NCBI RefSeq assembly: GCF_028745505.1
Contig: NZ_JAQZZL010000002.1
Coordinates: forward strand, 930,001 to 994,000
Reading direction: 5' to 3'
DNA: 64,000 nt
Source: Lentisphaera marina
GTDB taxonomy: Bacteria > Verrucomicrobiota > Lentisphaeria > Lentisphaerales > Lentisphaeraceae
Made by a program: the position numbers and the translations under genes. The notes beneath the pieces are model-generated. The model worked only from the letters and a program-made list of their open reading frames with translations, made no database searches and was not told the origin of the DNA. Below, one piece after another: positions 38,276 through 62,302 of this stretch; within the stretch, counting starts at the first letter, position 1; every line of letters starts with the position of its first letter.

Positions 38276-40942
38276 ATGAATCGTTTTTTAATACTTATCT
38301 TCGCTCTCATCACCTGTGTACACGCTAAAGAGATTAATTTTAATCAGGATATACGACCGATTCTCTCGGATCGTTGTTTTCATTGTCATGGTCCCGATAA
38401 ACATGATCGTAAGAAAAAGCTTCGTCTCGATATAGCAGAGGGAGATGATGGGGCTTATCGAGTTCGTAGGGGGAAGCACGGTATCTTACCAGGTGATCTT
38501 GAAAAGAGTACTGTTTGGCAGCGCATCATTACTGATGACGAAGACGATATTATGCCACCTATTGATTCTCATAAAAAGCCTTTGAACGACAAAGAGAAAG
38601 CCCTTATTAAGCAGTGGATTGAAGAGGGCGCGAAATATGAAGATTTTTGGGCTTTTGTCCCAGCAAAGAAAGTTCAACCGAAGGTAAGTAATAAAAATTG
38701 GGGTAATGGAGAAATTGATCAATATATTTTATCCATTTTAGAAAAGAATCAGCATAGCCCTTCTGAAGAAGCTGATAAAAGAACTTTAATCCGTCGCCTA
38801 AGTTTTGATTTGACTGGTTTACCTCCAACAAGAGAAGAAATAAAACAGTTTCTTAGTGACTCCAGTGATAAAGCTTATGAGAACTTAGTTGATCGCCTGA
38901 TTGCCAAGCCACAATATGGTGAACATATGACCAAATATTGGCTAGATTTAGTTCGCTTTGCCGATACAAATGGTCGCCACCACGATCACTACCGCGATAT
39001 GACTCCTTATCGTGATTGGGTGATTAAATCTTTCAATGAAAATTTGCCCTATGATGATTTCATTCGTTACCAAGTGGCGGGTGATCTTTACGAAAAGCCG
39101 ACACAAGATCAGTTAGTCGCTTCGGGCTTCAATCGCCTCCATTTAATTATTGATAAAGGTACAGCGCCACCAGAAGAAAGTTTGACACGCAATGTAATTG
39201 ATCGAGTGACGGCAGTGGGCACGGCTTTTATGGGCTTAACAGTTCAATGTGCAGTCTGTCATGATCATAAATATGATCCCATTACTCAAAAAGATTTCTT
39301 TTCGCTGTATGCCTTTTTTAATAACTTTGATGGTGGAGCTGAAACTGGAGGTCGAAAGGGCGGGGACTTTAAAAAAGGTCTTCAGAAACCCTATATTTAC
39401 TTAAAAGATGAAAGTGTGGGTGCAGCGGCTGAAATTAATCCCTACTGGATTTGGAAACAGGCCAAAGTTAAGACTGAAAAAGCCAACTTTAAAAAGCTTT
39501 TTAAACTCAAATCAAAACCCAAAAAAGCTTTGCTTCAAGCTACTTGTGACAATGATTTCAGCCTGAAGATTAATGGTCAGCAAGTTGCTCATTCGAAGGA
39601 ATGGCATAAGCCTGTTAAAAAAGATGTTGCCTCCTATCTCAAAGAGGGTGAGAATGAGATTATTGTGGAAGCGGGGAACGTCGGAGGCTTAGGTGGTTTT
39701 ATTATGCTTTTACGTGGTGAAAACTTTCATGTTATTAGTGATGATTCTTGGTTGGCACAGACTCCTGGTGCTGATTGGCATTCTGCAGTACAATTGCATC
39801 CCCATGGTGTAGATCCTTGGAAGTCAGTAATTGAAACTGTACCCGAAGATAATCGTCGAGCTGCAATGATAATGAAAGAACGCAAAGATATTCGTCCAGC
39901 TCATATATTGCTCAGGGGTGAGTATGATAAATTAGGTGAAGTGGTAGAACGCAATACACCAGGTTTTTTACCGCCCTTGAAAAAGCAAGGTGACATTGCC
40001 TCGAGAATGGATCTAGCGAATTGGTTGGTGAATGATCATCCCTTAACAGCTCGCATTGCAGTCAATCGTTTTTGGCAACAGCTCTTTGGAGTTGGTTTAG
40101 TGAAGACTTCAGAAGACTTTGGTGCGCAAGGAGAAGTCCCCAGTCATCCCAAATTACTCGATTATTTAACAGTGTCTTTCGAAGAATCGTCTTGGGATGT
40201 GAAAGCCTTAATGAAAAAAATAGTTTTATCAAAAACGTATCGCCAATCATCGAAGGCGAGTCAAGAAGAATTTAAGAGTGACGCAGAGAACCGACTCTTA
40301 GCACGTGGTTCGCGTTTCCGTATGGATTCAGAAATGATTCGCGATCAAATTTTGTTTAATAGTGGTTTGCTATCGAATAAGATGTACGGACGAAGTGTAA
40401 AGCCAGCTCAACCTGATGGCTTATGGAAAGCCGTAACAATGCCATATTCTTATCCCAAGACTTATACAGCCGATACTGGGGAAGCAACTCGTCGAAGAAG
40501 TGTTTACACTTTTTGGAAACGTGGTATGCCACCGCCCCAGATGAGTATTATGAATGCACCAGAACGCGAAGCCTGTATTGCTAGAAGAGAAAGAACTAAT
40601 ACTCCCTTGCAAGCCTTATTATTAATGAATGAACCTGAATTCTTTAAGATGCAGGGACTCTTAGCACAAAAGCTTTTAGCGGATACTCAATTAAGTGATT
40701 CAGAACGTATTCAAAAAATTTATGAGCAATTAACATCACAGTTGCTCAGTGAGTATCGAGAAAAAATCCTATTAGACTTACTCAATACGTTAAAAGCTAA
40801 ATACAAAAAAATGCCTAAAGAAGCGAAAGAAACTTGTTTATCGCTTGGTATTAATAGTGCCTCAAATGAGGTCGATTTAGCTTCTTGGGCAATGCTGGTT
40901 AATACGCTGTATAGCTTAGATACAATGAAAACGAGAGAATAG
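38276..40942 (+). CDS. PSCyt1-DUF1549-DUF1553 protein, paralog 1
   Basis: The 888-residue secreted protein has a signal peptide ([17 protein letters not shown]), a planctomycete-type cytochrome (PSCyt1) with CFHCH at 34-38, a DUF1549 domain ([37 protein letters not shown]) with CAVCHDHK at about 325, then DUF1553 ([64 protein letters not shown]). Between them, about 390-497, lies a beta-rich insert ([37 protein letters not shown]) resembling a galactose-binding-like module. Pairs with DUF1501 genes are typical, as here 10 bp on. The reaction is unknown. Confidence 0.88.
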
Positions 40943-40952
40943 AGAGATGACT

Positions 40953-42374
40953 ATGTTTAAACAAAAATTATCACGCCGCAATTTTCTCAAACAGAGTGCA
41001 TTGGGTTTAGGTGCTACCTCATTTGGTGGGTTTAATTCACAATTATTAGCTGGTGCGCAATTGGGTACTCATCATAAAGCTAAAGCTAAGAGGGTTATTT
41101 TTCTCTTTATGGCGGGTGGCCAAAGTCAGTTGGATTTATTTGACTACAAGCCTCAACTTAATAAACTTTTTAATACCAAACTTCCTCCTTCAGTCAGTAA
41201 TGGGCAAAGAGTTACTCAGATGACCAAGGGGAAGGAACAGCTGATTCAGCCATCTAAATTCAAGTTTTCACAGCATGGACAATCGGGAACATGGATGAGT
41301 GAGTTATTGCCACACTTATCAAAACAAGTTGATGATATGTGTATTATTAAATCAATGCATACCAAATCAATTAATCACGACCCAGGCAAGACAATGTTCT
41401 GTACGGGTGACGAAATGCCAGGGAAACCCAGTATGGGCTCTTGGCTTAGTCATGGTTTACCATCAATGAATAAAGATTTACCTGGTTTTATCGTCATGCC
41501 TTCAGCTTTTTGGTCAGGCGGCACAGGAAATGTACAGGCACTCTATAGTCGCTTGTGGGGTAATGGCTTTCTACCTTCAAAATACCAAGGAACCGCTTTG
41601 CAAGCAGCCGGTGACCCTGTACTATTTTTATCAAACCCTAAGGGAGTTAGTCCCGAAATCCGTCGTGCATCACTGGATAGCCTATCGAAGTTGAATGATA
41701 ATGACTATAGAATCATCGGCGACCCAGAAATTCAAACGAGTATTGCCCAGCAAGAGTTAGCGTTTCGCATGCAATCGTCAGTGCCCGAACTAACCGATTT
41801 AAGCCACGAATCTAAAGCCACGATGGCACTCTATGGACCAGAAGTCGAAAAGCAGGGTTCTTTTGCTAGAAACTGCCTTTTAGCACGCCGTATGGCAGAA
41901 AGAGGAGTGCGATTCATTCAACTCTTCCACCGTGGATGGGATCACCATTCAGGTTTGCCAGGAAAAATTAAAGGTCAGTGTTATGATGTCGACCAAGCTT
42001 CAGCAGGACTCATCCAAGATCTCAAGCAGCGTGGTATGCTCGAAGATACACTTGTGGTCTCTGTGGGGGAATTTGGGCGTACGGTTTATGGGCAAGGAAA
42101 ACTCAATCGCGATAATTATGGACGCGATCACCACCCGCGTTGTTTCTCTGCTTGGATGGCAGGTGGAGGAATAAAAGCAGGTTTAAGCTACGGACAAACT
42201 GATGACTTTTCCTACAACGTTGTAGAGAATCCTGTTTCTGTTGCAGACTTTCACGCCACCATGCTGTGGCAGCTGGGAATTGATCATACGCGTTTAACTG
42301 TTCCTTTTCAGGGCTTAGACCAAAAGTTGACTGGTGTTGATCCTTGCGATGTGATCAATAATATCATAGCATAA
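40953..42374 (+). CDS. DUF1501 (sulfatase-fold) Tat-exported protein, paralog 1
   Basis: The 473-residue product has a twin-arginine signal (SRRNFLKQSALGLGATSFGG). DUF1501 proteins have an alkaline-phosphatase/sulfatase-like fold; visible features are [54 protein letters not shown] and VVSVGEFGRTVYGQ. The ATG at 40953 has AGAGAG six bases upstream; an ATG at 40947 is the alternative. It is co-transcribed with the PSCyt1 gene before it and followed 3 bp later by a polysaccharide deacetylase gene. The two proteins probably work together outside the cytoplasm, with unknown substrate. Confidence 0.87.
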   Translation: MFKQKLSRRNFLKQSALGLGATSFGGFNSQLLAGAQLGTHHKAKAKRVIFLFMAGGQSQLDLFDYKPQLNKLFNTKLPPSVSNGQRVTQMTKGKEQLIQPSKFKFSQHGQSGTWMSELLPHLSKQVDDMCIIKSMHTKSINHDPGKTMFCTGDEMPGKPSMGSWLSHGLPSMNKDLPGFIVMPSAFWSGGTGNVQALYSRLWGNGFLPSKYQGTALQAAGDPVLFLSNPKGVSPEIRRASLDSLSKLNDNDYRIIGDPEIQTSIAQQELAFRMQSSVPELTDLSHESKATMALYGPEVEKQGSFARNCLLARRMAERGVRFIQLFHRGWDHHSGLPGKIKGQCYDVDQASAGLIQDLKQRGMLEDTLVVSVGEFGRTVYGQGKLNRDNYGRDHHPRCFSAWMAGGGIKAGLSYGQTDDFSYNVVENPVSVADFHATMLWQLGIDHTRLTVPFQGLDQKLTGVDPCDVINNIIA

Positions 42375-42377
42375 GTC

Positions 42378-43106
42378 ATGAATTTAAATCACTTTCGATT
42401 GCTGCTGACACTACTGGTGTTTGGAATTTATATAAAGGCTAGTGAAAATCATAAAACTGTGGTTTTGACTTTTGATGATTCAGTCAAAAGTCATTATGAT
42501 TTTGTTGCGCCTTTATTAAAAAAACATGGCTTTAATGCCACCTTTTTCATTACCGAGGGCTTCTCCTTTCACAAGCGCAAAGATCTCTATATGACCTGGA
42601 GTGAAATTAAAGAACTTCATGATCAAGGTTTTGAAATAGGCAATCATACTAAGGCTCATCGCAATGTTAAAAAACTTTCTTCTGAGCAATTGCGTTTATC
42701 TTTGTCTCATATCGAAGAGAAGTGTAAAAAACATGGGATACCCAAACCCATTTCATTTTGTTACCCTGGCTATGTTACTGATCCGAAAGCTTTGAAAGTC
42801 TTGCAGGAGATGAATTATAAGTTTGCCCGAGCGGGAGGGGATCGTGCCAGTCAAGTAGGAAAAGATAAACTATTGCTTTTACCCCAAGCCTTTGACGCCA
42901 AGCCCCACTGTACTTTAGAACAATTCAAAAAAGCCGTCGATCAAGCTGATGAAAAACACATCCCGATTTTAACCTTTCATGGTGTGCCGGATATTGAGCA
43001 CCCTTGGGTGAATACTGAGCCCGAGCTTTTTAAGAAATACATGAAATATCTTAAGGATAATAAGTTTAAAGTGATAAGCTTGCGAGAGTACCCCGCAGCA
43101 CAATAA
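42378..43106 (+). CDS. Secreted polysaccharide deacetylase (NodB homology)
   Basis: The 242-residue product has a signal peptide (MNLNHFRLLLTLLVFGIYIKAS). NodB motif 1 is TFDDSVKSH (Asp-Asp) and motif 2 is NHTKAHRNV (zinc His-x3-His). CYPGYV and ILTFHGVPD supply later motifs. The family removes N- or O-acetyl groups from glycans such as chitin, peptidoglycan or xylan. As third gene of the operon with PSCyt1 and DUF1501, it strengthens the case that this operon handles acetylated polysaccharide. It is convergent with the araC-type gene (4-bp gap). Confidence 0.88.
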   Translation: MNLNHFRLLLTLLVFGIYIKASENHKTVVLTFDDSVKSHYDFVAPLLKKHGFNATFFITEGFSFHKRKDLYMTWSEIKELHDQGFEIGNHTKAHRNVKKLSSEQLRLSLSHIEEKCKKHGIPKPISFCYPGYVTDPKALKVLQEMNYKFARAGGDRASQVGKDKLLLLPQAFDAKPHCTLEQFKKAVDQADEKHIPILTFHGVPDIEHPWVNTEPELFKKYMKYLKDNKFKVISLREYPAAQ

Positions 43107-43110
43107 GCTT

Positions 43111-43842
43111 TTAGAGCTTATGATATTGTGAGCGATATTGACTCGGACTCATATCTTTAAGTCGTTTAAAATTCTTTGTGAAGTGGCTATGATCAAAAAA
43201 GCCGCAATCGTAGGCTATTGATGATAGGGTATCGTTAGTTTGAATCAAAAGTTCACAGGCTTTATCAATACGCATTTTATTAATGAATTTTAGAGGCGTG
43301 ATATTCATGGTTCTTTTAAAACTTCGCTCAAATTGACTTAGAGATAAATTTGCGAGATCCGCAAGTTCTTGAATTTCGATTTGGCGGGTAATATTTTTTT
43401 TGACATAATTAAAAATAGGTGTGAATTTTTGATAGGGCGAGAGGAAACTTCCCGCTTGGTTGGAGTTGCGCATGATGCCCACTAAACCCATGCAGTTTTG
43501 ATGAGAATCAAAGAGGGGGTATTTGCTAGATATATACCAGTCAACTCCACCCCGGCGATTATCAATGGCCCAAGTTCTATTATAAATAGGTTTTTCTGAA
43601 TCAAATAACTCTCTATCTTCCCTAAGGAATAAGTCAGCTTGATTACGCTGAAAAAAATCGTAATCAGTTTTGCCTAAAACTTCACTTTCTGAGCTTAGAT
43701 TTAGCTGTTTAAGAAGAGTTTTATTCATCATCGTGAATTTAAAATTGATATCTTTCGCAAAGGCAAAGATATCGGGTGAATTATCGAAGAAGTTCTGAAT
43801 GAAATCATCCAGCTTAGCATGAGAGAAGAAGTTGTAGTCCAT
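43111..43842 (-). CDS. PAS-domain AraC-family transcription regulator
   Basis: The 243-residue product has an N-terminal PAS domain (about 12-130; NSPDIFAFAKDINFKFTMMN, VLGKTDYDFF) and a C-terminal double HTH (about 140-243; LANLSLSQFERSFKRTMNITP, IAYDCGFFDHSHFTKNFKRLKDMSPSQYR). It lies between two paralogous PSCyt1/DUF1501 operons and is divergent from the second. A 17-bp motif shared with the first operon is 14 bp before its start, so it probably controls both operons and itself. The inducer is unknown. The ribosome site is AAGGGC. Confidence 0.88.
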   Translation of the reverse strand: MDYNFFSHAKLDDFIQNFFDNSPDIFAFAKDINFKFTMMNKTLLKQLNLSSESEVLGKTDYDFFQRNQADLFLREDRELFDSEKPIYNRTWAIDNRRGGVDWYISSKYPLFDSHQNCMGLVGIMRNSNQAGSFLSPYQKFTPIFNYVKKNITRQIEIQELADLANLSLSQFERSFKRTMNITPLKFINKMRIDKACELLIQTNDTLSSIAYDCGFFDHSHFTKNFKRLKDMSPSQYRSQYHKL

Positions 43843-43855
43843 AAAAGCCCTTATA

Positions 43856-43872
43856 TGCCGAAAATATACAAG
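43856..43872 (+). promoter_or_regulatory. Candidate operator, copy 2 (TGCCGAAAATATACAAG)
   Basis: Located in the 110-bp gap between the divergent AraC gene and the second PSCyt1 gene, 80 bp before the latter's ATG. It differs from 38195-38211 only at two adjacent bases (AT against GC). Its placement fits a shared operator with autoregulation. Confidence 0.5.
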
Positions 43873-43952
43873 TAAAAAATAGCTTTGTCCAAGTCCTTAT
43901 TCATACAAGCCCTTTATTGATCTTATATTTTATCAAATTTAACAGGCTTAAT

Positions 43953-46754
43953 ATGAAAAGAATTTTATTGCTTCTTCTATTCACAAACTCAATATCAGCT
44001 GAGGTTAACTTTAACCGCGATGTACGCCCCATCTTGTCTAAGTACTGCTTTCATTGTCATGGACCCGATGAAGAGAGTCGTGAAAAGAAGTTGCGCCTAG
44101 ATATAGCTGATGGCGAACTTGGAGCTTATCGCACGCGCAGGGGAAAAACGGCTATCAAACCAGGCGATGCTATGGCGAGTCATGTTTATTTACGTATGAT
44201 CAGTGATGATGAAGATGACATCATGCCGCCACCAGATATTAAAAAGGAAATGAAGAAAGAGGAAATTGCTATAATCAAGCAGTGGATTGAGGAGGGTGCT
44301 GAATATCAAGGTCACTGGGCATTTCAAAAGCCCCAAAAACATTCTGCTCCTCAAGTAAAAAATGATAAGTGGCCGAAAAATCTGATTGATAGCTTCATTT
44401 TATCTGAGTTAGAAAAGAAAGATTTAAGTCCTGCGGATAAAGCGGATAAAAGAACTTTAATTAGACGCCTTTATTTGGATTTAACGGGCATGTCCCCAAG
44501 TCTTGAGGCCGTGAATGAATTCCTCAATGATAATTCATCGCAGGCTTATGAAAAATTAGTGGATAAGATTTTAGCCAGCCCAGCTCATGCCGAAAGATTG
44601 GCTCTCGACTGGTTGGATACGGCACGTTATGCCGACACAAATGGTTACTCCATTGATGATCACCGTGATATGTGGGCCTGGCGTGATTGGGTCATTAAAG
44701 CCTTTATTGATAATAAGCCTTACGACGAATTTATGACTGAGCAAGTCGCAGGTGATTTGTTGGTGAAGAAGCCCATTCATGAAATGCCAAAAACCTCGTG
44801 GATTTGGAAAAAGGAAGTTAAGCAAAACGAAAAAATTAATCTAAGGAAACGTTTTCATTTGGATAGCTTACCCAAAGAAGCCCACTTAGATGCGACCTGT
44901 GATGACAAGTTTACTATTATTCTAAACGGTAAAAAACTGGGTGGCTCAGATTTATGGAGCAAACCTTTATCCACAGATATCACCAAACACTTGAAGGAAG
45001 GTTGGAATGACATTTTAGTTCATGCAGAAAATGTGGCATCTTTAGGTGGTTTTGTCGCTGTTCTAAAAATCGATGATTATTATGTGGTGAGCGATAAATC
45101 ATGGGATGTTCAATTTGATAATAAATCATGGGTTAAAGCGACGGAGCACAAAGCCTATGGCTCAACACCTTGGGCTACGGTTTTAAAGCTTGAGAAACAA
45201 GCTCAGTTGAGTGAAGAAGAAATTCAAAGAGTGGTCGCTACTGGTTTTTTACGCAATGGTATGAATACTCACGAAGGTGGTACTTTACCGGAAGAGTACA
45301 TTACTTTTTATCACAATGATAAAGTCGATACTGTGTCTACAGCTTTTTTAGGCATGACGACTAAATGTGCTCAGTGTCATGACCACAAATTTGATCCCAT
45401 TTCGCAAAAAGATTTTTACTCGATGTACGCGTTTTTTAACAACTCATCAGAAAGTGGTATGGGAGCAGGGCGAGGGGGGAATTCTAAGCCATTTATTCGA
45501 GTGAATTCATTACTTACTCCTAAGGACGAGATGCTTAAAAATTATAAGGAACGCATTAGTGAACTTAAAGAGCTTCAAGCTGAGATAAAAAAGCAAGAGA
45601 ATTATTTGGGCTTTAAATCAATTAAGGGCGTAAAAAATATAGATAAAGAAATTCATGTCTTAGACGAACAGATTAAATCAGGAAAAACATCTGTCATGGT
45701 GATGGATTGGAGAGCTAAGAAAACCCATATCCGTATACGTGGCCAATATGACCAATTGGGTGAAGAAGTGAGTCCAGCTGCGCTAGGACAAATTCTTGCT
45801 TTTGATGATAAATACCCAAGCAATCGTTTAGGCCTAGCTCAATGGATCCTGGATAAAGAAAACCCCTTGACAGCACGCGTAGCGGTTAACCGTTATTGGC
45901 AGATGATTTTTGGCACGGGACTTGTCAAAACAAGTGAGGATTTCGGTTCTCAAGGTGAGTACCCCTCCCATTTGGAATTACTTGACGTGTTAGCCCTGGA
46001 TTTTCGTGATAATAATTGGGATATACGTCGCCTCATTAAGAAAATTGTGATGTCCGCAACCTATCAGCAAATCTCAAAATATAATGCGAAAGCCGCAAAA
46101 ATTGATCCTTATAATCGTCTTCATCACAGGGCACCAAGTTTCCGCCTGTCAGCTGAACTTGTAAGAGATAATGCTTTACAAATTTCGGGATTAATGAATC
46201 AGAAAGTAGGGGGGCCAAGTGTACACCCTGTTCAACCCTCGGGGCTTTGGGCCCAAGTAAGCCACTTCGGTCATGGTGGTGGCGGAGGTTTTAGTTCTCA
46301 AGCTTACTATGAAGGGAAGTCTTTACGACGTAGTATGTACACGGCCATCAAAAGAACGGCAGGCCATCCAGCGATGGCAGCTTTTGATGCTCCTAATAGA
46401 GAAGTTTGTACTGTGCGACGTCAACAAACGAATACGCCACTGCAGTCTTTAGTCATGCTCAATGACCCTCAGTTTATGGGGACGGCGCGATATTTAGCTA
46501 AACGCATGAAGCTAAAAACTCCTGTAGTAGATGAGCAACTAGCCTATGGATTTACCTTAAGTACAGGACGACCGCCAAGAGCGCAAGAAACAGCTTTATT
46601 ATTACAGAACTATAAGCAGCAATTGAAATTTTATACTGAGCATAAAGAGGAGTTAGCTAAGTTAAAAAGTACTCAGGGTGACCCCGAGCATGGAGCTTTG
46701 ATTATATCGGCTTCCATGATGATAAATCTCAGTGAAACAATGACGCGTAACTAA
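43953..46754 (+). CDS. PSCyt1-DUF1549-DUF1553 protein, paralog 2
   Basis: The 933-residue product begins with a signal peptide from the ATG at 43953 ([16 protein letters not shown]); upstream codons from 43917 do not fit a signal. CFHCH lies at 32-36, followed by DUF1549 ([42 protein letters not shown]). A lectin-like insert (about 283-384: [38 protein letters not shown]) is placed inside DUF1549, before CAQCHDHK (472), unlike paralog 1, where it follows that motif. A helical stretch (about 525-570) and DUF1553 complete it. Together with the DUF1501 gene it repeats the first operon without the deacetylase. Confidence 0.88.
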
Positions 46755-46765
46755 GGGTGAGCAAT

Positions 46766-48163
46766 ATGAAATTTAATCGTAGAAACTTTGTAAAAACTGG
46801 GGCCTTAGCTCTAGGTGCTCTAGGAAGTGAAAAAACTCTTTTAGCGGGGTCGAATAAGAACTCCTTGCCACACTTTGCACCTAAGGCGAAGTCAATCATT
46901 TACCTTTGTCAATCAGGTGGGCCTTCACACATTGATCTGTTTGATTACCACCCAGAAATGAAAAAACTCCACGGAACTGAGTTACCCGATTCAGTGAGAG
47001 GTGGGCAACGAGTCACGGGCATGACTGCAGGACAAAAGAATTTCCCTGTTTGCGCACCAATTAAAGAATTTAAACAGCACGGGCAATCGGGTACTTGGGT
47101 GAGTGAATTTTTACCTTATACTTCTAAAATTGTTGATGATATAACAGTGATTAAATCAATGCATACCGAGGCGATTAATCACGACCCTGGAATTACCTTT
47201 CTCAATACAGGATCACAAATTCCTGGAAGACCTAGCTTGGGAGCTTGGTTGAGTCATGGCTTGGGTAGTACTAATAAAAATATGCCGGCCTACAATATTC
47301 TCCTTTCTCAAGGGAATGGTAAGAAACCAGGACAACCGATTTTTTCTCGCCTATGGGGAAGTGGTTTTTTACCGTCGGTACACCAAGGAGTGCAATTGAG
47401 AAGTGCTGGAGATCCTATTTTGTATTTAAAAAATCCTGCAGGCGTGAGTCGTCCAAGTCGCCGGAATATGTTAGATTCTTTAAAATCATTAAATCATATG
47501 TATTATCAACAATCTCAGGATCCAGAAGTTCAAACGCGAATTGAACAGTATGAAATGGCTTATCGCATGCAGGAGTCAGCACCAGAAATTGCCGATATAA
47601 GTTCCGAACCTGAATCAACTTTTAAACTCTATGGAGAAGACGCTCGTAAGCCAGGGACCTATGCATACAATTGCCTTATGGCGCGTCGTATGATTGAGCG
47701 TGGTATCCGCATGGTACAACTCTTTCATCGCGGTTGGGATCAGCATGGTAGTTTGATGCCACATTTAACGGCTCAGTGCAAAGACACCGATCAGGCTTCG
47801 GCAGCCTTAGTGACGGATCTCAAACAACGTGGTTTATTAGATGAGACCATGGTTGTTTGGGGAGGAGAATTTGGTCGCAGTGTTTACTCACAGGGTAAGT
47901 TGGGTAATGGTCGGGACCACCACGGCAAGTGCTTTTCCATGTGGGTTGCCGGCGGAGGTTTCAAAGCTGGTTTATCTTATGGTCAAACAGATGAATATGC
48001 CTATAATATTGTTGAGGACGCAGTAAGCGTTAATGACCTCAACGCGACCATTTTGCATAATTTAGGTATTGATCATGAACGCTTTACTTATCCTTTCCAA
48101 GGCTTGGACAACAAACTAACTGGTGTTGATCATGCTTCAGTGATAGCGGATTTATTAAGTTAA
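46766..48163 (+). CDS. DUF1501 (sulfatase-fold) Tat-exported protein, paralog 2
   Basis: The 465-residue product has the twin-arginine signal [19 protein letters not shown]. The ATG at 46766 has AAGGGTG seven bases upstream and is preferred over a GTG at 46757. It matches the 40953 protein in order of motifs ([67 protein letters not shown]). It lies 11 bp after PSCyt1 paralog 2. Pairwise duplication of both genes suggests the two form a functional unit. Confidence 0.87.
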
Positions 48164-48268: not shown

Positions 48269-51200
48269 ATGAGGGTGATTTTGGAGGATCAAGAAAAGAA
48301 CAATCAGGTTTTAGAGAGTTTACTCTATCTTTTGTTGTCGGGTAAAGTTTCTAATGATAAACTTATCCCTGCATTAAAGAAGTTTACGAATGAGTCATTA
48401 GATCTTGACGAAGTTTTATCAATTTTAAAAGCTACTTCTGGTGATGCTTTTCAAGATATCTGTCGACAAATCGAAGGGAGTCAGTTAGAAGACGCCAAAA
48501 AGTTTTACGAATTAAATCAAATATCGGCAATAGATGAAAAATACTTCAGTGAACAGCTCAAGGGCTTACCTCTTGATATGCCTAAAAATAATCAAGAACA
48601 AGGTATTTATAGTGAACTGGAGGATGCCTGCCTATTACTCAATGATTACTTCTCCCTCCTAAAAAAGCAGCGATCAATCCCCATACTTTTTACTTATATC
48701 GAGCAAAAGAGTTTAAAGAAAGTCGATTTTTTCACTGAGAATAAACACTTTTTAGCATGTCTAGATATAGAGAGATTAGTCGGCTACGCATGGCATCAAG
48801 CTAGTGATGATTTACGACTCGAATTACGTCAGTTAAAGCAACAAAGCCAAGAGTCTTATCTGCGTAATTTTGAAGAAGGGCTAGAGGCTATAAAGTCAAA
48901 AGAAAGTTCGTTTGTCCTTAGCAGTCCCAAAGCATTTCTCGATGCACTGATCGTCTATTTAGGTGAGGGTGGGGAACTTTCCCAGGAGCTGCTAGAGATT
49001 ATTTTTAAGTGGCCAAGTTCTGATATTGTAAGTTTATTAAAAGTTTTGTGGCAGAAAACAGAAGATAAATCTAAGTTATCCTTACTCCTAACCATGAGAT
49101 TTGGAGATCTTAATTCTTATAATCGTACTGAGTGGCCAGTCCTTTTGGATAAATTTGAAGGGGAGTATTTAAGTTTTGTAGACAGGATTAATCACCTCAG
49201 TAAAAAGTTCCCGATTCGTTTGCTATATATGTGGTGTATGGACCATGGTGAAGTAAGTGAAAAACTTCTTGATTTGCTAAAAGAATCTTGCTTAGAAGAG
49301 GCTGATCAGTACGATTGTAAAAATATTATTCAACGTTATCAAACTGAGCTACAGATTCCTCGTGCAGAGTACAATTTGCTCTTAGGGATTAAAGAAGATC
49401 CACTTATAAGTGTTGAATATGCTGAAGAACAAGGGCCCGAATTGGGCAATGACGATGACAAACTAGTCAGCGCTAAACCAAAAATTATTTTAAAAGATTA
49501 TTTAGCTAAGAGAGATAAAGAGGCCGCCTTAACAGAGTCATTAAAACACGAGCCTAAAAAGTCTGATTCTTTAAAACCAGAGCCTAGAAAACCAGCAGTA
49601 AAGGCAGTGAAAACTGAGAAGCTTTCTAAGAGGTCCGTGTGGCAAGAACACATGAAGCCATTTATAAGCGAAAACTGGTTCATGATGGCGGGCTTACTAC
49701 TTTTTGTCGCGGGGAGTTTGATTTTATCTTATTTTACTTGGGATAAACATTGGCTCTTTCGCTATAGTCTGATGCCTGGTTTATTGGCTTCATTTACCAT
49801 GGGTTTAGCGTATTTAGGGAAATGGATTGAGAGTAAGAGTAGAGACTTTGTGAACTCAGCTAGCATTCTTCGTGGTGCCGCGATTCAATTACTGCCAATA
49901 AATTTCATGACAGTTGCCTTGATGTCTTCTGATGACATGGTGCGTTATAAACACTTTCTCATTCCCGTCATGGCCGCCATATACCTGAGCTTAACTTGGT
50001 ATGGTCTAAGTCGTTGGTGCATGTCCGTATCCAAGCACCTAAGTCCCGTGCTCCCACGTACGCTTTTAGCGATTAATAGCTTGGTAATTTTAGCGCCATT
50101 AGCCGAAACTTTTGGACTGAAAAATAACGAAACTTTATTATTGATTTTGGCTTTTGGTTTTTATTTTGGTTTTGCTTTTCTGACATACTCATTTTATTCT
50201 TTTTCTTTGCGGATTAAGCAATTTAAGCTTCAACTTGAGCGTAGGATCATCTGGTTCTTTAGCCTGATGATTGCCGCTAGTTTTATTCAAGTTTTCTTAT
50301 GGGTTCACAGTCATATCCGCTATTTGCCAGAGATTTATACCTATGCACCCTTAGTCCTTATTGCGGGTGCTTTAGTCTTAATGCTTGAGCGCTGTAGTGG
50401 AGACTTGGTTGGATCACTTAAATCATCACAAGAAGATGAGTCTTTTGTGGGTTATGTACTGATTGTTGTCGGTTTAGTTATGAGCTTTAATCATCCCATA
50501 TTTCGAATTATTTGTTTATTTCTTTCCTCGTATATTTGGTTCCTGCAATCAAAACACCGGCAGAGGCATGTGCATTATTACATTACGGTTACTTTGCTGA
50601 GTGTCGGCTTCTTTGCCATTAGTGGATTAACTGGTTTTAAAGCTCAATATATGCCCGCACTCGGTCTAATAAATGTATTAGTGTTGAGCTTATTAACCCT
50701 GCAGTTTCGCCAGCAGAAATCTTATGGCTTTGCCAAGGCTTGTAGCAATACACAAGTAGTGGTTTTACTAGCTGTCGTCATTTTAGCTATGGTGAAGCAC
50801 GCACAAATTCAGCATTCATTATTACTTACTTCTTTCTACCTTTTATTTCCCGCAATAATGTTCATGTTTCGTGCTTACCGCGACGAACAGCTTAAGTGGA
50901 TTCATCTTAGTATGTTTGTGTTTGCACTTAGCCTCCCTTACATGGGTTGTGTGGATATGGAAGCAGGGACGCTGGTGGGTAATACTTTGGTTTTTGGCTT
51001 AGCCTGCTTATCCATAGTTTGGTTACTTGCAATTCGCTATATTCCCTTTTATTTACTCAAAGAAGCGAGATCTACTGTTTTGTGGTTCTACGGTTCCCTG
51101 TCAGTCGTGGTAATGTTTATACGGATTTTCATGGAACGTCACGTTCCTGTGGATCCTGAATGGTATAAGGGCTTTATGGATTACTCAGGGCCGCTGTTAA

Positions 51201-54200
51201 TGACGGCAGTATTAGTTCTGGCAAGTTATCTTTCGCGCTCACTGATCCCATCTTTTATGGCTGCCATTATAGCCGTTATTTTATTCCCTGAATTAAAAGC
51301 AAATTTTCGTGCCACTTTTGATACTCTAGGTTTTGGTTCAGGGCTGGGCAGTGCATTTTCATCTTTAATTATGATCGCAGTCGCTTTTTTCTTAAGGCAA
51401 AATCAAAAGTTTAAGAACTTAGGCGAGGGTGATAAGTTTATGATGAGTTCTTACTTCCCCTTAAGGCGCTATGATCATACTTTGTTTACTTTGCCTTTAA
51501 TTGGATCCGCCTGTTTTTTACTCGTAAAAACGGCCACGTTTAATCTGATTCGTCAGGAAGTGGTGGGTGGAGGCGTGAGTATGAAAGGCGCAGTGGCCTT
51601 AATAATATGTTCTCTTTGTGCCTGTTTTTTATATCTTTATTTCCGAAAACAAAAAATCACCTGGCTCTTTCACTTGGCTTGGATCTATTTAGCCATAGGT
51701 ATGTGCTTTACTTTTGATTTGCTTGAAGGGGAATTCCATTGGACAGAGCCATGTTTCTGGACCCTGTTAAGCTTACAAGTGGCATACTTCTTGAATCTTA
51801 AACTTCGTGACTCTTATGAGTTTATAGATGACTTATTTATTCAACCCTTAAGTACGACTCTAGCGGGATTAAGTCACGTAAGTTCTGTACTGCTCATTGT
51901 GACTTTTGTGGGTTCAAATACCTTCGGGATGACATACCCTTTATTTTTCTTCATAGTTGGTCAGTTTTTATCGTATTTGAAAAGTCGAGAGAAAGTACAT
52001 TTTGGCATTAATTTATATTTACTCATTTGTGCATGTGTAAGTCCTTGGGATAGTCATTCTTTTGAAGAGCTTCTAATGCCGAGTCTTTACTTCACATTAA
52101 TTTGCTTATTGGCTCATGTTTTTGTGAGTCGCATCGAGGGGCTCTACAATCAGTACAAAGCCTTGTTTAAATCCTTTTTAATCATGGCGACTCTCTTCAG
52201 TTTAACTTTTACTTTATACTCATTGCCTTATCTAGCGCAAGTACTTGATTTGAGTGCGTTTTTTATTCTAATGACGAGCTGTATTTTGATTTTAGTTTAT
52301 TTAGAAAATCAATCCAAAGTCTTTTTATTACTTTCCTTCATAAGCTTCTATTCCTATTTTCATCATGATCAGCTAGACTTGATTTTTGATCCAAAGCACT
52401 TGTCATTATTCGCCTTATTATTTAGCTTAGTATCCTATGGCCTCATGAACTTAGAAAAAGAAAAATCCGCTTGGATGAATACGGGATATTCACTAAGAGC
52501 TTTTAAAAGTGTGAGTGGGGCGGTGCTTTATGTGCCACTGATTTTAATCTGTGAATTTTCAGCAATACTGCATGTTCTGCATTGGCGTAATAATAGTGAA
52601 TATATTGTGGCTACTTACATTGGGGCGATAACATTATCATTTATTGCGTGGGCTTGGAAACGCATCGAAGTAGGGGTTTTCTGTGTTATTACTTTAGCGT
52701 TAGCCAATGTTCATTTAATTCGTTGTTTCGGAAAAAATTATTTGAACGAACAAGGCCTATCAGAGATACACCTCTTGTGTTTAGCTCTGGGCTTAACTTT
52801 ATTGATGACGAGTTTAGTTCGTAAATACAATCCAAATAAAGCGATCAAATCACTACTGGCTCATAGTGCTTTGGTTTTATCTCTCTTAGTTCTAGTCTTT
52901 CTCATTGGTAATTATATGAGTCACCCGAATTTGAATGAAGTGAGTTCATTCCGCTTCTTTATTTCGGGTGCAATGTCTTTCTTGGCGGCACTTTATTTCC
53001 GAAGTGCCTCACGCAAACCACAAGATGGAGAAGAGGCATATACAGAGATTTTTGAAGGGATTTATCATTTCGGTCTCAGTATGAGCTTTTGGTGTCTTAC
53101 TTTAATGATCCCCTTTATGCGCAGTCCGCAAACGGCAATATTAGCTTTTGGTTTACCAGCAATTTATTTCTACTACATGACGGAGTGGTATTACGCTCAG
53201 GGGAAGAACCACAAGGTATATAGGAATTCTTCCGCTTTATTATTGTTGGTTCTTTTCCTCTTATACATTTTTAAAGGTGTTGTTCATATGACCTTTTATC
53301 CTGACATAGTTATGGATAATAGTTATTATCACAGCAATGCGCCCATTTTAATAATTTATGGGCTCTTATTATTTCGTTTACATGCTTTGGGTGCTCGCAT
53401 TCAGATGCCTTTATACGGAGGATTTGCTTTGGTGTTAGGCTTCTTTTTTACTTTGAGTTCGGCTCCTAGCTTCAGTCCCTTTAATCACCCAATAAGAGCA
53501 TCTTATCTTGCAATGATTAACGCGCACATATGGATCCTACTCAATTATCAAAAGTCACCACTTAGGGTCTATTTTATGCAATGGTCTAAGTTAGATGAAG
53601 AACAATGGCTTTCATTGAGGAAGACTTGGGCAATTTATTTATTTGTCCTCACTCAAATAATGGCTTGCATAGCTTTGCTAAATACCTGGGGGCAGAGTCA
53701 TTTGTTTGCACCGGTATTACTGCTGGCGGCCAGTGTGGTAGCTCATCTTGCTTATGTGCGGAAATCAAAGTTTTTTGCAATTGTTACACTTTTAGAAATC
53801 CTAATCGCAATGCATTCAGGCTTTTTGATGGATAGTTACTTACGGGCAGACGATGTTATTTATGTACTCTTAGCAATTTGGGCCATATTTACCTTTGTCA
53901 GCTTCTATAAATATAATAATGTTCCAAGTAAACGAGCTTGGCCAGTAGCCATATTATTTATAGCTTTGCTTATTCCGCATATTATTTACCATGATCTATA
54001 TAGTTTTAAATCATTGGCAGCAGTTGTGCTAATGGTGCTCTTAAGTTTATTGACCGCCTATTCACGGGAAAATATTAAACACAGCTTAGAGAAAATCATA
54101 CCATTAACTTACTTGTGTGTCCCCGTTTATTTAGCGTATTTAGCTGCTTATGATGAAGAACTTCATTCGCCATTATACTTACAAAAAGAAGCTCTACCAG

Positions 54201-55366
54201 CGACTTTGTTTGCCCTGTTTTTAACAGCAAGTTCTATTCGCTATCTAGGGGGACAATCATCAGGCTTAATTAAGGAACTACTTTCTTTGCGTTATAAGGT
54301 TTTAAATTTAGTCTACCTTTTTTATAAGCATGAATCGACCAAAATCTCTTCCTGTATACTTTGGCTTCTTAGTGGATTAACGACGGTTCTCTTGGTGATC
54401 TTTATGGGTGAAGCTTTTACTCAAAAGCAATTTTTAATGCTCTTGATTACCTATGCGGGCCTCATTGTCATTTGGTATTTCAATGGCAGAAAAAAACGTA
54501 GTCAATTAGCATATTATATGGTGGCGTATTCGCTACTAATTTTTATGGCCTTTTTACGTCATCAAATGCTTACGGCTACAGACTTATGGCGAAATGAATA
54601 CGATGTGTGGAGTAGCTTACTTGTATCATTAACAATTGCGGGGCTAAAACCTTTTATTGATGAGACTGAAAAAGAGATGAAAAACCCTCTCTTGGGAGTC
54701 CTTTTTCTCATGCCCATAATCGCTCTGGGGAAATCTTTTTATTACGGATTGGGAACAGATTATATTCTGATGATTCTCGGTGTGAATAGTTTGATATTTT
54801 CTTTTCTCGGAAAAGATGATCGAGAATCTCCTTATCACTTAATAGCCATGATAGGTTATGTCTCATTTACCTCAATGACTCTATGGAATAAGCTCGAATT
54901 GAGAACTCTTCATACTTATGTTATTCCATCGGGAGTTGGGGTTTTAATGATCTTACAATTGATGAAAAATAGTCTTTCAAGCCAGAAGAGAAACGTGATT
55001 CGTTTAGTCACTCTATTGATGATGGTGTCGACTTCGGCTTTTTATGCGGTAATAGCAGAACCACGGTCCATAGCATATAATTTAACGCTGATTACCCTTT
55101 GCCTTTTAGCAATGGCTTTTGGATCTTTATGGAAAATTCGTCTTTATTTAATTCTTGGTTTTACGGGTTTGCTCATAGATATTTTGTCGATATTTACGCG
55201 TGTATTGATCGATCTCCAAAGGGGGACACGTATGGCAATTCTGGGTAGCTGTATATTGCTGATAGGTGGCTCTTTGGTCTTTGCCAACCTCTACTACAAA
55301 ACTCAGCAGGAGCGGATAAAGAAAATTATAAGTAAATGGCGACTCAAACTCTCCACTTGGGAATAA
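48269..55366 (+). CDS. Giant polytopic membrane protein, 2365 aa
   Basis: I do not recognise this family. Residues 1 to about 410 are soluble, acidic and mainly helical (LESLLYLLLSGKVSNDKLIPALKKF). A Lys/Pro/Glu-rich linker follows (about 410-455, ESLKHEPKKSDSLKPEPRKP). From about 462 (NWFMMAGLLLFVAGSLILSYF) to the end, hydrophobic helices of 18-22 residues follow one another with short loops, several dozen in all. No signal peptide, transporter motif or enzymatic signature is seen. It is a single gene with a terminator-like hairpin downstream. Polytopic DUF2339/DUF2157-type proteins share the look but are much shorter. Function is unknown. Confidence 0.8.
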   Translation: MRVILEDQEKNNQVLESLLYLLLSGKVSNDKLIPALKKFTNESLDLDEVLSILKATSGDAFQDICRQIEGSQLEDAKKFYELNQISAIDEKYFSEQLKGLPLDMPKNNQEQGIYSELEDACLLLNDYFSLLKKQRSIPILFTYIEQKSLKKVDFFTENKHFLACLDIERLVGYAWHQASDDLRLELRQLKQQSQESYLRNFEEGLEAIKSKESSFVLSSPKAFLDALIVYLGEGGELSQELLEIIFKWPSSDIVSLLKVLWQKTEDKSKLSLLLTMRFGDLNSYNRTEWPVLLDKFEGEYLSFVDRINHLSKKFPIRLLYMWCMDHGEVSEKLLDLLKESCLEEADQYDCKNIIQRYQTELQIPRAEYNLLLGIKEDPLISVEYAEEQGPELGNDDDKLVSAKPKIILKDYLAKRDKEAALTESLKHEPKKSDSLKPEPRKPAVKAVKTEKLSKRSVWQEHMKPFISENWFMMAGLLLFVAGSLILSYFTWDKHWLFRYSLMPGLLASFTMGLAYLGKWIESKSRDFVNSASILRGAAIQLLPINFMTVALMSSDDMVRYKHFLIPVMAAIYLSLTWYGLSRWCMSVSKHLSPVLPRTLLAINSLVILAPLAETFGLKNNETLLLILAFGFYFGFAFLTYSFYSFSLRIKQFKLQLERRIIWFFSLMIAASFIQVFLWVHSHIRYLPEIYTYAPLVLIAGALVLMLERCSGDLVGSLKSSQEDESFVGYVLIVVGLVMSFNHPIFRIICLFLSSYIWFLQSKHRQRHVHYYITVTLLSVGFFAISGLTGFKAQYMPALGLINVLVLSLLTLQFRQQKSYGFAKACSNTQVVVLLAVVILAMVKHAQIQHSLLLTSFYLLFPAIMFMFRAYRDEQLKWIHLSMFVFALSLPYMGCVDMEAGTLVGNTLVFGLACLSIVWLLAIRYIPFYLLKEARSTVLWFYGSLSVVVMFIRIFMERHVPVDPEWYKGFMDYSGPLLMTAVLVLASYLSRSLIPSFMAAIIAVILFPELKANFRATFDTLGFGSGLGSAFSSLIMIAVAFFLRQNQKFKNLGEGDKFMMSSYFPLRRYDHTLFTLPLIGSACFLLVKTATFNLIRQEVVGGGVSMKGAVALIICSLCACFLYLYFRKQKITWLFHLAWIYLAIGMCFTFDLLEGEFHWTEPCFWTLLSLQVAYFLNLKLRDSYEFIDDLFIQPLSTTLAGLSHVSSVLLIVTFVGSNTFGMTYPLFFFIVGQFLSYLKSREKVHFGINLYLLICACVSPWDSHSFEELLMPSLYFTLICLLAHVFVSRIEGLYNQYKALFKSFLIMATLFSLTFTLYSLPYLAQVLDLSAFFILMTSCILILVYLENQSKVFLLLSFISFYSYFHHDQLDLIFDPKHLSLFALLFSLVSYGLMNLEKEKSAWMNTGYSLRAFKSVSGAVLYVPLILICEFSAILHVLHWRNNSEYIVATYIGAITLSFIAWAWKRIEVGVFCVITLALANVHLIRCFGKNYLNEQGLSEIHLLCLALGLTLLMTSLVRKYNPNKAIKSLLAHSALVLSLLVLVFLIGNYMSHPNLNEVSSFRFFISGAMSFLAALYFRSASRKPQDGEEAYTEIFEGIYHFGLSMSFWCLTLMIPFMRSPQTAILAFGLPAIYFYYMTEWYYAQGKNHKVYRNSSALLLLVLFLLYIFKGVVHMTFYPDIVMDNSYYHSNAPILIIYGLLLFRLHALGARIQMPLYGGFALVLGFFFTLSSAPSFSPFNHPIRASYLAMINAHIWILLNYQKSPLRVYFMQWSKLDEEQWLSLRKTWAIYLFVLTQIMACIALLNTWGQSHLFAPVLLLAASVVAHLAYVRKSKFFAIVTLLEILIAMHSGFLMDSYLRADDVIYVLLAIWAIFTFVSFYKYNNVPSKRAWPVAILFIALLIPHIIYHDLYSFKSLAAVVLMVLLSLLTAYSRENIKHSLEKIIPLTYLCVPVYLAYLAAYDEELHSPLYLQKEALPATLFALFLTASSIRYLGGQSSGLIKELLSLRYKVLNLVYLFYKHESTKISSCILWLLSGLTTVLLVIFMGEAFTQKQFLMLLITYAGLIVIWYFNGRKKRSQLAYYMVAYSLLIFMAFLRHQMLTATDLWRNEYDVWSSLLVSLTIAGLKPFIDETEKEMKNPLLGVLFLMPIIALGKSFYYGLGTDYILMILGVNSLIFSFLGKDDRESPYHLIAMIGYVSFTSMTLWNKLELRTLHTYVIPSGVGVLMILQLMKNSLSSQKRNVIRLVTLLMMVSTSAFYAVIAEPRSIAYNLTLITLCLLAMAFGSLWKIRLYLILGFTGLLIDILSIFTRVLIDLQRGTRMAILGSCILLIGGSLVFANLYYKTQQERIKKIISKWRLKLSTWE

Positions 55367-55656: not shown

Positions 55657-57012
55657 CTATTTTTTAGTGATAAAGGTTTTCCCCAGTGGATCGGCGGTTT
55701 CTCTAAGGCGCTTACGCATTTTTTTAAGGATCTCTTTATATTCCGGGTTTTTGGCAAAGTTTTGTAGTTGATTGGGGTCTTTTTGCAGGTCGTGAAGGAA
55801 TTCATATCCTTCCTCTGGATAGGATGCATAAACATAACGCTCTCCACGTATTCCTTCCCATTTTGGAATGGATGTATGTTTACTGAAAAATTCGCCCATG
55901 AAGTCATTACGCCAATCTACAGCTTCGCCCTCAATAATTGGCTTTAGACTTTTACCATTATATTCTTTCGGCGTAGGCACTCCTGCGTAATCGAGCATAG
56001 TTGCACCAAGATCGATATTGAGAGCCATTTGCGTCGTTTTTTGTCCTTTTTTATTGCGACCATCGAAAATGATAAGTGGTACACGTAGTGATTGCTCGTA
56101 ATGAGTCCATTTACCAGCAAAACCACGATCTCCGGCGTAGTAGCCATTATCAGCAGAGTAAACGATGATTGTGTTATCTAAAAAGCTTTTATCTTTTAAA
56201 GTCTCAACAACTCTTCCTAGTGCAAAATCAATACCTGAAGCCATACGTAGATAGTTACGCATGTTGTGCTGATATTTCTCTGGGGTATCCCAACGCCATT
56301 TATAGCGGTCGGCATGCATAGAGTTTTGCATAAAATCTGGCTGAGATTCAAAGATCTTGCGATCGTGAAGTTTAGGCAAAGGCATGGTCATGCCTGTATA
56401 GAGGTGAGCTGCTGATTCAGGGTAAGGAAAGTGATCCTTCTTATCCCCATCTTCTGCATGTGTCGCGTTAAAGTTTAAGCTGACAAAAAAGGGCTTTTCT
56501 ACACTTTGATCTTTTATAAAATTGATTGCGTGGTCCGCAATAATATCGGTTTCGTGCTTAAGTGAGCCATCGCGCATTTTTTTATGAAAGGGATTTCTTC
56601 CTACCTGGATAAATTTATCAAACATCATCTTTTGTTGTTTTTTATCCAGCCTGAAGTGAGTTTTACCAAAATAAGCCATTTGATAACCGGCCTTTTTCAA
56701 ACCCATTGGGTAAGAAGTTGTGATGAATTTAGGCTGAATCATTCCTCCCGTGAAGCGATGCTTGCGCATGTACATGCCCGTGAGAATAGAAGCACGACTT
56801 ACCCAGCAAGTCGCTGTGGTCACGAAAGCATTTTCAAAAAGCGTGCCATTTTCTGCGAGCTTATCGATGTTTGGAGTCTTTACTACTGGGTGCCCCGTGC
56901 AGCCTAGAAAGTCGTTGCGCTGGTCATCAATTAAAAAGAAAACAATATTAGGTTTATCAGCTGCGGTGACCGCAAAAGTCATAAGACTTAATATTAGGAA
57001 TAGGTATTTCAT
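55657..57012 (-). CDS. Arylsulfatase A-type sulfatase, CWVSR active site
   Basis: The 451-residue product has a signal peptide (MKYLFLILSLMTFAVTAA). The metal-binding segment FFLIDDQRNDFLGCTG and the active-site Cys69 (TATCWVSRASILTG) are present; Arg is kept but the usual Pro/Ala at +2 is Val. Later, IVYSADNGYYAGDRGFAGKWT marks the second metal site. The ATG at 57012 has GAGAG at normal spacing, whereas the in-frame ATG at 57018 is too close. It ends the sulfatase array, 11 bp after the iduronate-sulfatase-like gene. The substrate is unknown. Confidence 0.88.
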   Translation of the reverse strand: MKYLFLILSLMTFAVTAADKPNIVFFLIDDQRNDFLGCTGHPVVKTPNIDKLAENGTLFENAFVTTATCWVSRASILTGMYMRKHRFTGGMIQPKFITTSYPMGLKKAGYQMAYFGKTHFRLDKKQQKMMFDKFIQVGRNPFHKKMRDGSLKHETDIIADHAINFIKDQSVEKPFFVSLNFNATHAEDGDKKDHFPYPESAAHLYTGMTMPLPKLHDRKIFESQPDFMQNSMHADRYKWRWDTPEKYQHNMRNYLRMASGIDFALGRVVETLKDKSFLDNTIIVYSADNGYYAGDRGFAGKWTHYEQSLRVPLIIFDGRNKKGQKTTQMALNIDLGATMLDYAGVPTPKEYNGKSLKPIIEGEAVDWRNDFMGEFFSKHTSIPKWEGIRGERYVYASYPEEGYEFLHDLQKDPNQLQNFAKNPEYKEILKKMRKRLRETADPLGKTFITKK

Positions 57013-57023
57013 TGGCATCTCTC

Positions 57024-58448: not shown

Positions 58449-59422
58449 TTTATACCTTTGTTCATGATTTTATAGATTGTGTCACCTTTGGTCTTTGGAG
58501 CATGGTGAAAAATCGCCAGATAAAGAGCGTCGTCTTTGACGGTAAAATAGTACGGGGTTATACCACTTGGGATTAAGTGACTAAGATCTTCCCAAGCACC
58601 TTTCACAAAATCCTCTAAAGTTTTAAAACGAATAAGTTTATTTTTATCGAAATCAGTTTTGCCTGCGTAAGGCTTACAAAAATAACTACTGGCATACCAA
58701 TAGCCATCGAAAAACTCCACATCATTGAGGACAAGTCCGGTGCGTTCCCACGAGCCAGCTGCTCCCTGACGCTTTGATGGATCAAAACTATCGTAGATCT
58801 TAAATTCTTTTTTGTCCCAATCGACGATCTCAACAACTCTTCCCTTTGATGAGCCAATTGCATAAAGTTTACCCTTAACTAAGCTTATGGAGCGGGAATA
58901 AGCATGAGTGGGAACTTTTAGAGCACTTTCATTCTCGCCTATGGCAGTAAAGCGAAAAACCGTCCCCGAATTGGGATTAATCGCATAAATCCACGAACTC
59001 TCAGAGTCCACAATAATGTCGTGCGGTCTTTGTAGTTGAACTCCTGCAATAGACTTTGTCTCCGCATGTATTTCTGCTTTTGAGAGATCCTTAACGGCGA
59101 CGATACGATGATGTTCAGTGTCGTTTATATAATAGAGTTTGTCTTTGGGGTTATAGGCTACGGAATGTAGCCCTTTAAGTGGTAGAGGAGAAACCTTAAA
59201 GAGTTCATCCTTTTTATTGCGGTAGACAATACGATTATTCTTTAAATCAGAAATAATTTCCTGTTCACCAGGACCAAAGGCAATATGAGTTGGCCACTTA
59301 AACTCTATGGGATCTTGTTCAGAAATATAGTTTTCAGCTACAAGTGATGACTTGACATCAGCTAGTAAAGCAAAATTAAACATAGCTAAAAAACTAAGAG
59401 TATGGAGAAGTGGCAATTTCAA
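58445..59422 (-). CDS. Secreted NHL/SMP-30-like beta-propeller protein
   Basis: The 325-residue product has a signal peptide (MKLPLLHTLSFLAMFNFALLA). Repeated blades of the type FGPGEQEIISDLKNNRIVYR, YNPKDKLYYINDTEHHRIVAV and VDSESSWIYAINPNSGTVFRF show an NHL-like propeller. No catalytic residues stand out. It lies in the sulfatase run, 2 bp after one sulfatase and overlapping the next, so it may be a lactonase-like or binding component for sugars released by the sulfatases. Function is inferred. Confidence 0.75.
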   Translation of the reverse strand: MKLPLLHTLSFLAMFNFALLADVKSSLVAENYISEQDPIEFKWPTHIAFGPGEQEIISDLKNNRIVYRNKKDELFKVSPLPLKGLHSVAYNPKDKLYYINDTEHHRIVAVKDLSKAEIHAETKSIAGVQLQRPHDIIVDSESSWIYAINPNSGTVFRFTAIGENESALKVPTHAYSRSISLVKGKLYAIGSSKGRVVEIVDWDKKEFKIYDSFDPSKRQGAAGSWERTGLVLNDVEFFDGYWYASSYFCKPYAGKTDFDKNKLIRFKTLEDFVKGAWEDLSHLIPSGITPYYFTVKDDALYLAIFHHAPKTKGDTIYKIMNKGIK

Positions 59423-59424
59423 TA

Positions 59425-60762: not shown

Positions 60763-60903
60763 GTCTTTTTCCTTGATTCATTTTTATAGTATATGCTAAG
60801 CAAATCCTGAATCTTACCTTCCAATAGTGATTTTGGTTGATTTTTTATGCGAAATGCGGATTTTATTATATTTACAAGCGCGTTTTATTGCAGAGAATTG
60901 TTA

Positions 60904-60930
60904 CTCATGGATTTTAGTCGAATCCATGAG
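60904..60930. repeat. 10-bp perfect inverted repeat between sulfatase genes
   Basis: CTCATGGATT and AATCCATGAG flank a 7-bp loop. It lies 33 bp after the 60963 stop and 142 bp before the 60762 start, on the minus-strand reading. No T-run follows on either strand, so it may be an operator or RNA processing site and not a simple terminator. Confidence 0.6.
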
Positions 60931-62300: not shown

Positions 62301-62302
62301 TA

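Follow-up and report, generated by a model that had tools for sequence, protein, structure and literature searches.

How does one domain come to lie at two different positions in paralogous proteins encoded by a single locus? The question is raised by a stretch of 64,000 nucleotides from Lentisphaera marina (contig NZ_JAQZZL010000002.1, positions 930,001 to 994,000 of the forward strand), hereafter the window, in whose coordinates features are given. Two genes on its plus strand, here called p1 and p2, encode proteins with the domains PSCyt1, PSCyt2 (DUF1549) and PSD1 (DUF1553). Each protein also carries a module starting with the residues WIWK, which lies in the linker between PSCyt2 and PSD1 in p1 and within PSCyt2 itself in p2. 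Proteins with DUF1549, DUF1553 or DUF1501 domains are numerous in the genomes of the Planctomycetes-Verrucomicrobia-Chlamydiae (PVC) group, and this genome has 24 PSCyt2 genes, the split match of p2 being counted once. A preliminary description of this DNA had proposed that the module moved or was gained twice. We consider it probable that two PSCyt/PSD1 genes of a single polysaccharide-utilisation locus each acquired, independently, a module resembling carbohydrate-binding module (CBM) family 67, which would act there as a shared glycan tether.

The reading frames, Pfam matches and motifs define p1 as a PSCyt1-PSCyt2-module-PSD1 protein of 888 amino acids (38276 to 40942) and p2 as a protein of 933 amino acids (43953 to 46754) in which the module separates PSCyt2 into two parts. 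The start of p2 is most likely the ATG at 43953 and not the TTG at 43917, judging from a signal-like N-terminus; its residue numbers count from 43950. All three domains exceed the Pfam cut-offs, in the same order, in both proteins. In p1, PSCyt1 spans residues 34-96, PSCyt2 forms one unbroken stretch at residues 146-351 (38711 to 39328) and PSD1 occupies residues 577-833 (40004 to 40774). In p2, PSCyt1 spans residues 33-96, PSD1 lies at residues 625-886 (45822 to 46607) and PSCyt2 is matched as two stretches, the best of them at residues 146-295. Together with the core model, these matches place the first part of PSCyt2, as far as the insertion, at 44385 to 44771 and the second at 45201 to 45449. 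A search of the whole genome with PF07583, independent of the Pfam scan, also split p2 into two pieces, 363 bases apart. Both proteins have two CxxCH motifs, which are putative haem sites, at residues 34 and 325 in p1 and at residues 33 and 473 in p2; the second belongs to CAVCHDHK in p1 and to CAQCHDHK, in the second part of PSCyt2, in p2.

The module covers residues 391-520 of p1 (39446 to 39835) and residues 284-413 of p2 (44799 to 45188). Its placement after CAVCHDHK in p1 and inside DUF1549 before CAQCHDHK in p2, as first described, thus agrees with the frames, motifs and domain matches. The starts then proposed, at about residues 390 and 283, also hold, and the proposed ends, at about 497 and 384, fall short of the true ones. 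The two modules are 42% identical across 130 residues (BLASTP E 7e-32), a likeness that cannot be due to chance. Among the 24 PSCyt2 genes of the genome, these two carry a module of this type, and none of the other 22 had a match to it at E 1e-3. No direct repeats bracketing either module were found by the DNA search at the settings used; the one 21-base match, at the common start of both modules, reflects their homology. The cores of p1 and p2 can be aligned end to end and are collinear, as had been claimed for the flanking domains. This excludes a circular rearrangement of the core, which had been named as the finding that would undo the interpretation, and movement of the module through circular permutation is thereby ruled out.

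The comparison of core and module phylogenies, suggested as a check in the preliminary description, revealed clear discordance. In a core tree of 108 rows, p1 falls within a clade of 28 rows; apart from p1 and its two orthologues, the 25 proteins of this clade have no insert longer than 28 residues. The p2 core lies elsewhere in the tree, with L109 and then L110. Forcing the p1 and p2 orthologues into one clade of a 40-row core tree costs 262 log-likelihood units (approximately unbiased (AU) test, p 1e-7). The two cores belong to different subfamilies. The module trees were built with modules of the fetched loci only, with 64 rows once the weak L028 and L037 were dropped, and 27 of them were used in a smaller tree. 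In the 64-row tree, a clade of 11 rows (support 100/99; 90/91 in the 27-row tree) unites the modules of p1 and p2, three of each, with five from the N-termini of cytochrome c/DUF1080-type proteins, and all 11 come from one family of organisms. Inside it, the p1 and p2 modules are sisters with support of 98/86 or 91/86. Because the cores belong to different subfamilies and the modules to one clade, separate gain in the two cores is well supported.

The distribution of the module in related genomes fits this view. In the two other genomes of the genus covered by the search of the taxonomic order, the orthologues of p1 and p2 carry the module just where p1 and p2 have it. In the sister genus, the p1-like proteins L148 and L155 (64.9 and 63.4% identity to the p1 core) have no module. 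The p2-like L109 (53.8% identity to the p2 core) has neither a module at the PSCyt2 site nor an insert in the linker, and the p2-like L237 matches p2 solely outside residues 271-426, its PSCyt2 site being empty. These counterparts come from two genomes, not four (L148 from G002, L109 and L155 from G003). Since both sites are empty in them, a double gain accounts for the data better than a move within one protein. Most likely, each of the two genes acquired the module on its own, and the source lay within the same family.

Residues 41-100 of p1 (window 38396-38575) are 93-98% identical in protein sequence to L004 and its relatives, insert-less paralogues of the same genome, and two of the p1 orthologues are only 83% identical to each other over this segment. 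This may reflect local gene conversion, for which the DNA signal is weak. Gene conversion between neighbouring paralogues was also considered as the carrier of the module; the rise in DNA identity is mild (75-88%) and lies away from the module, and we make no such claim.

How unusual each insertion site is was assessed with a model of the core derived from four paralogues that lack inserts, scoring proteins with at least 500 core columns. The resulting 110 proteins comprise p1, p2 and their four orthologues, 16 of this genome's 22 remaining PSCyt2 proteins, 81 proteins from 80 named loci (the 80 best among 177 matches) and seven of the eight proteins with a module in PSD1; they were picked by similarity and module presence, not at random. 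Inserts of 40 residues or more occur in 63 of the 110 proteins, as 64 events: 54 in the PSCyt2-PSD1 linker, the site of p1, three at the site of p2 and seven inside PSD1. Three further events (L142, L013, L002), none of them at the p2 site, were omitted on account of flanking matches overlapping by more than 60 model columns. The linker is the usual place for extra sequence in the PSCyt/PSD1 family. The p2 site is filled in p2 and its two orthologues only, and the remaining 107 proteins lack even an 8-residue insert there. When 387 genomes of the phylum were searched with a p2 profile that ran across the module and its two flanks, and no more than seven candidates were scored per genome, full-length matches with E 1e-30 or better came from three genomes, each of them a member of this genus.

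Without the module, the p1 linker measures 88-94 residues in the three orthologues, as obtained by subtraction. Among the 25 insert-less members of the p1 clade, the linker has 126-159 residues in 22 and 75 in three. These lengths only suggest that the p1 module replaced a helical hairpin of the linker.

No relative emerged from a first scan of the named genomes in which the module was the sole query. The module type is widespread, with a match at E 1e-6 or better in 114 of the 387 genomes. Related modules occupy a third site, inside PSD1, in eight proteins belonging to three further families of this phylum (L071, L072, L079, L080, L084, L097, L098 and L100), and Pfam reported PSD1 as two stretches in both of those that were scanned. 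These modules form a separate clade of the module tree (8 rows, 100/99), and seven of their cores a distant clade of their own. In yet another lineage, L110 has a module at the linker site. PSCyt/PSD1 proteins have probably acquired such modules on several occasions.

What the module might do is indicated by its relatives. Searches with single sequences suggested a weak, sub-threshold match to the N-terminal domain of glycoside hydrolase (GH) family 2 enzymes and rhamnosidases, and p1 alone, searched with phmmer, matches the rhamnosidase structure 3w5m only at E 0.47. A profile of 21 modules searched against the PDB found the fungal lectin POL as the best match (E 2e-22), followed along the whole module length by residues 140-295 of 3w5m (E 1.5e-19), which we take to be domain D. 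As counted on the alignment, an invariant Asp of the module corresponds to D179 and the following residue to N180 of 3w5m, a pair that we presume to be functional in that enzyme. The equivalent pair is Asp425-Asn426 in p1 (39548 to 39553) and Asp318-Asp319 in p2 (44901 to 44906); this putative calcium and sugar site reads D-N in p1 and the cytochrome c/DUF1080 modules and D-D in p2, like POL. A D-[N/D] pair is kept in all 11 modules of the clade. The CBM67 of SaRha78A is described as calcium-dependent, with rhamnose bound (PMC4690510), and the text on POL presents two conserved aspartates as modelled for calcium-based sugar binding (PMC11512411). On these similarities, the module is probably a calcium-dependent glycan-binding lectin domain of the CBM67-like jelly-roll type.

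AlphaFold2 models of the two cores are good, with many blocks above 90 in predicted local distance difference test score (pLDDT) and means of 77.7 for p1 and 77.1 for p2. No PDB neighbour of either model was found at E 0.001 or better in the fold comparison of the cores. In the p2 model the insert lies between helices 257-270 and 421-434, whose counterparts in p1, helices 259-271 and 277-287, are connected by a loop of five residues.

A possible donor is encoded at the edge of the window. About 20 kb from p1 and p2 lies a gene for a fusion of cytochrome c with a 3-keto-disaccharide hydrolase (DUF1080) domain (L246, L069; G000:C2:993871-997446), the last 130 bases of which are in the window (63871-64000); its N-terminal module belongs to the clade of the p1 and p2 modules. 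Pfam confirmed DUF1080 in two of the five such proteins of the clade (L069 and L076); in the remaining three, homology is indicated by sequence or gene position or, for L034, by the module alone. The p1, p2 and cytochrome c/DUF1080 genes share one region in three genomes, extending over about 28 kb in this genome, 43 kb in G005 and 90 kb in G004. The probable donor is the N-terminal module of this fusion or a common relative.

Elsewhere in the genome, L074 (G000:C1, about 811295-815008) has DUF1080 first, a more distant module next and cytochrome c last, an order unlike that of L069. Its module lies outside the 11-row clade, and it has module-bearing relatives in both other genomes of the genus (L040 and L041).

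The neighbouring genes are in keeping with a role in polysaccharide handling. A DUF1501 gene directly follows each of p1 (40947 to 42374, plus strand) and p2 (46757 to 48163, plus strand). Between the two pairs are a polysaccharide deacetylase (42378 to 43106, plus strand) and a PAS/AraC-type regulator (43111 to 43842, minus strand). Further along, the minus strand from 55657 to 63643 encodes five sulfatases among six open reading frames scanned (55657-57018, 57024-58448, 59425-60762, 60963-62300 and 62303-63643). Between the p2 partner and the sulfatases is an open reading frame of 2365 amino acids (48269-55366) with many hydrophobic stretches; both other genomes of the genus encode relatives of it. 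A PSCyt-type gene close to p2 in G004 (L241:4372-6645) seems to be split by a stop into two frames.

Taken together, these elements suggest the following scenario. A CBM67-like jelly-roll module would have been gained separately by the p1 and p2 genes in this genus, entering the PSCyt2-PSD1 linker in p1 and a loop between two PSCyt2 helices in p2, and would have been copied from the cytochrome c/DUF1080 fusion or a common relative. The module would fold autonomously and tether the secreted redox proteins that carry it to one common glycan, and its exact position would therefore matter little. The sulfatases and the deacetylase would remove substituents from the polysaccharide, and the PSCyt/DUF1501 and cytochrome/DUF1080 proteins would carry out a cytochrome-linked, non-hydrolytic attack on its sugars. 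We infer the targeting role from the similarity to CBM67 and lectins and from the gene neighbours. A glycan tether common to the redox proteins of one locus appears to be the likeliest function on sequence grounds.

Several observations weigh against this scenario. The Pfam matches to the module remain under the curated cut-offs in both proteins: PF02837 scores 23.3 bits with p1 against a cut-off of 28, and 27.2 with the excised p1 module, and the Pfam scan gave no PF02837 row for p2. The NCBIfam model NF045579, a rhamnoside jelly-roll domain, reaches 17.6 and 20.7 bits for p1 and p2 against a cut-off of 50. A relative with the PSD1 site, L079, does pass (30.9 against 28 for PF02837; 25.3 against 25 for PF08531). 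The module regions of both models lack a confident fold. That of p1 is predicted as partly helical, with block pLDDT of 25-63, and that of p2 as strands, with block pLDDT of 33-51. The helical prediction in p1 most likely stems from linker helices of relatives aligned to the module. Added calcium left POL haemagglutination unchanged according to PMC12311003, which also cites a study where calcium inhibited it. The p1 and p2 modules are not nested inside the proposed donor group, so copying from it may have been indirect. With 27 rows, pairing the cytochrome c/DUF1080 modules with those of p1 (p 0.23) or of p2 (p 0.15) was not rejected; with 64 rows, these pairings do better than the free tree by 8.8 and 9.0 log units, its search having overlooked them (p 0.71 each). 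Finally, the empty sites of the sister genus could also represent losses, and G001, the remaining genome of the family and from a third genus, has no match above about 50% identity to p1 or p2.

A broader proposal, which seems to us possible but rather doubtful, makes of the module a locus-specific address tag. Placed at any tolerant surface loop of three or more redox proteins with haem motifs, which fall into two unrelated architectures, the same CBM67-like lectin would allow a cytochrome-linked, non-hydrolytic glycan-oxidising machinery to assemble on one polymer. If this were true, the identity of the module would predict the shared substrate of PSCyt proteins better than the phylogeny of their cores.

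It is unlikely that the module is instead a structural or docking domain, serving for example complex formation among the proteins of the locus, with sugar binding lost. The presence of the same module on three proteins of one locus would be equally explained, and not every jelly-roll domain of a GH2 or GH78 enzyme is a lectin. Against docking stand the conservation of the acidic pair throughout the module clade and the best solved match, which is a lectin and not a structural domain of a glycoside hydrolase. Two separate horizontal imports of related modules from outside the family would be allowed by the wide occurrence of the module type in the phylum. We regard them as quite improbable, given that all 11 modules of the clade, among the 64 in the tree, come from one family and that the G+C content of the modules (40.0% in p1, 37.7% in p2) is like that of the cores (39.9-41.6%). 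With this unremarkable composition, a status of recently acquired foreign DNA was also discarded. A single ancestral gain at the linker site, with later relocation into PSCyt2 in the p2 line and losses elsewhere, draws on the module at the linker site of the p2-like core of L110, from the Akkermansiaceae, and on a pairing of the p2 and L110 modules that the 64-row set does not reject (p 0.25), but it is very improbable in view of the empty sites of L109 and L237, the closest counterparts of p2, the p1 core clade otherwise devoid of large inserts, the rejection of that pairing in the 27-row set (p 0.011) and the average identity of the p2 modules, which is higher within their own family (42.9 and 37.9%) than to outgroup modules (31.7%, highest 39.0).

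Separate gain of a shared glycan tether, if correct, makes this locus a clean natural experiment in domain insertion: one domain, two sites and a sister genus with empty counterparts. The module common to p1 and p2 points to a shared sugar target of a poorly understood polysaccharide-handling system. The presence of the module in different cores of a single locus also provides a handle on the substrate, as the glycan that the module binds would name the polymer of the cluster.

PSCyt proteins bearing CBMs are already known. In Verrucomicrobia, the text of He et al. 2017 (PMC5615132) reports PSCyt genes with CBMs, including Bac_rhamnosid_N (pfam08531), and with sulfatase neighbours; it suggests a carbohydrate-related role and calls the functions unknown. 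Terms of this kind also appear in PMC2754498 and PMC11495043. The proteins described here resemble the PSCyt/PSD proteins of He et al. in both the fused CBM-like module and the sulfatase neighbours. They differ in that the same text, its architecture figure and supplements aside, describes neither a CBM inside PSCyt2 nor one module at several sites. Our literature searches, which did not cover that figure and those supplements, likewise turned up no report of a module site inside PSCyt2.

The closest characterised domains are found in proteins of other kinds. With the CBM67 that forms domain D of the Streptomyces avermitilis rhamnosidase SaRha78A (3w5m), the module shares a full-length profile match and the aligned acidic pair. 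There the domain is fused to a rhamnosidase and here to cytochrome-type proteins; p2 has D-D where 3w5m has D-N, and binding by p1 and p2 is a prediction from sequence. The Pleurotus ostreatus lectin POL (PDB 6t0q, 6t1d, 6kbj), the best solved match, has two aspartates as in p2 but is a free two-domain fungal lectin, whereas the module is an insert within a larger protein. Also close are the cytochrome c/DUF1080 fusions (L069, L076), which have a module of the same clade, a cytochrome c domain and a place in the same region of three genomes, and which differ from p1 and p2 in the N-terminal position of the module and in a core unlike that of PSCyt/PSD1 proteins.

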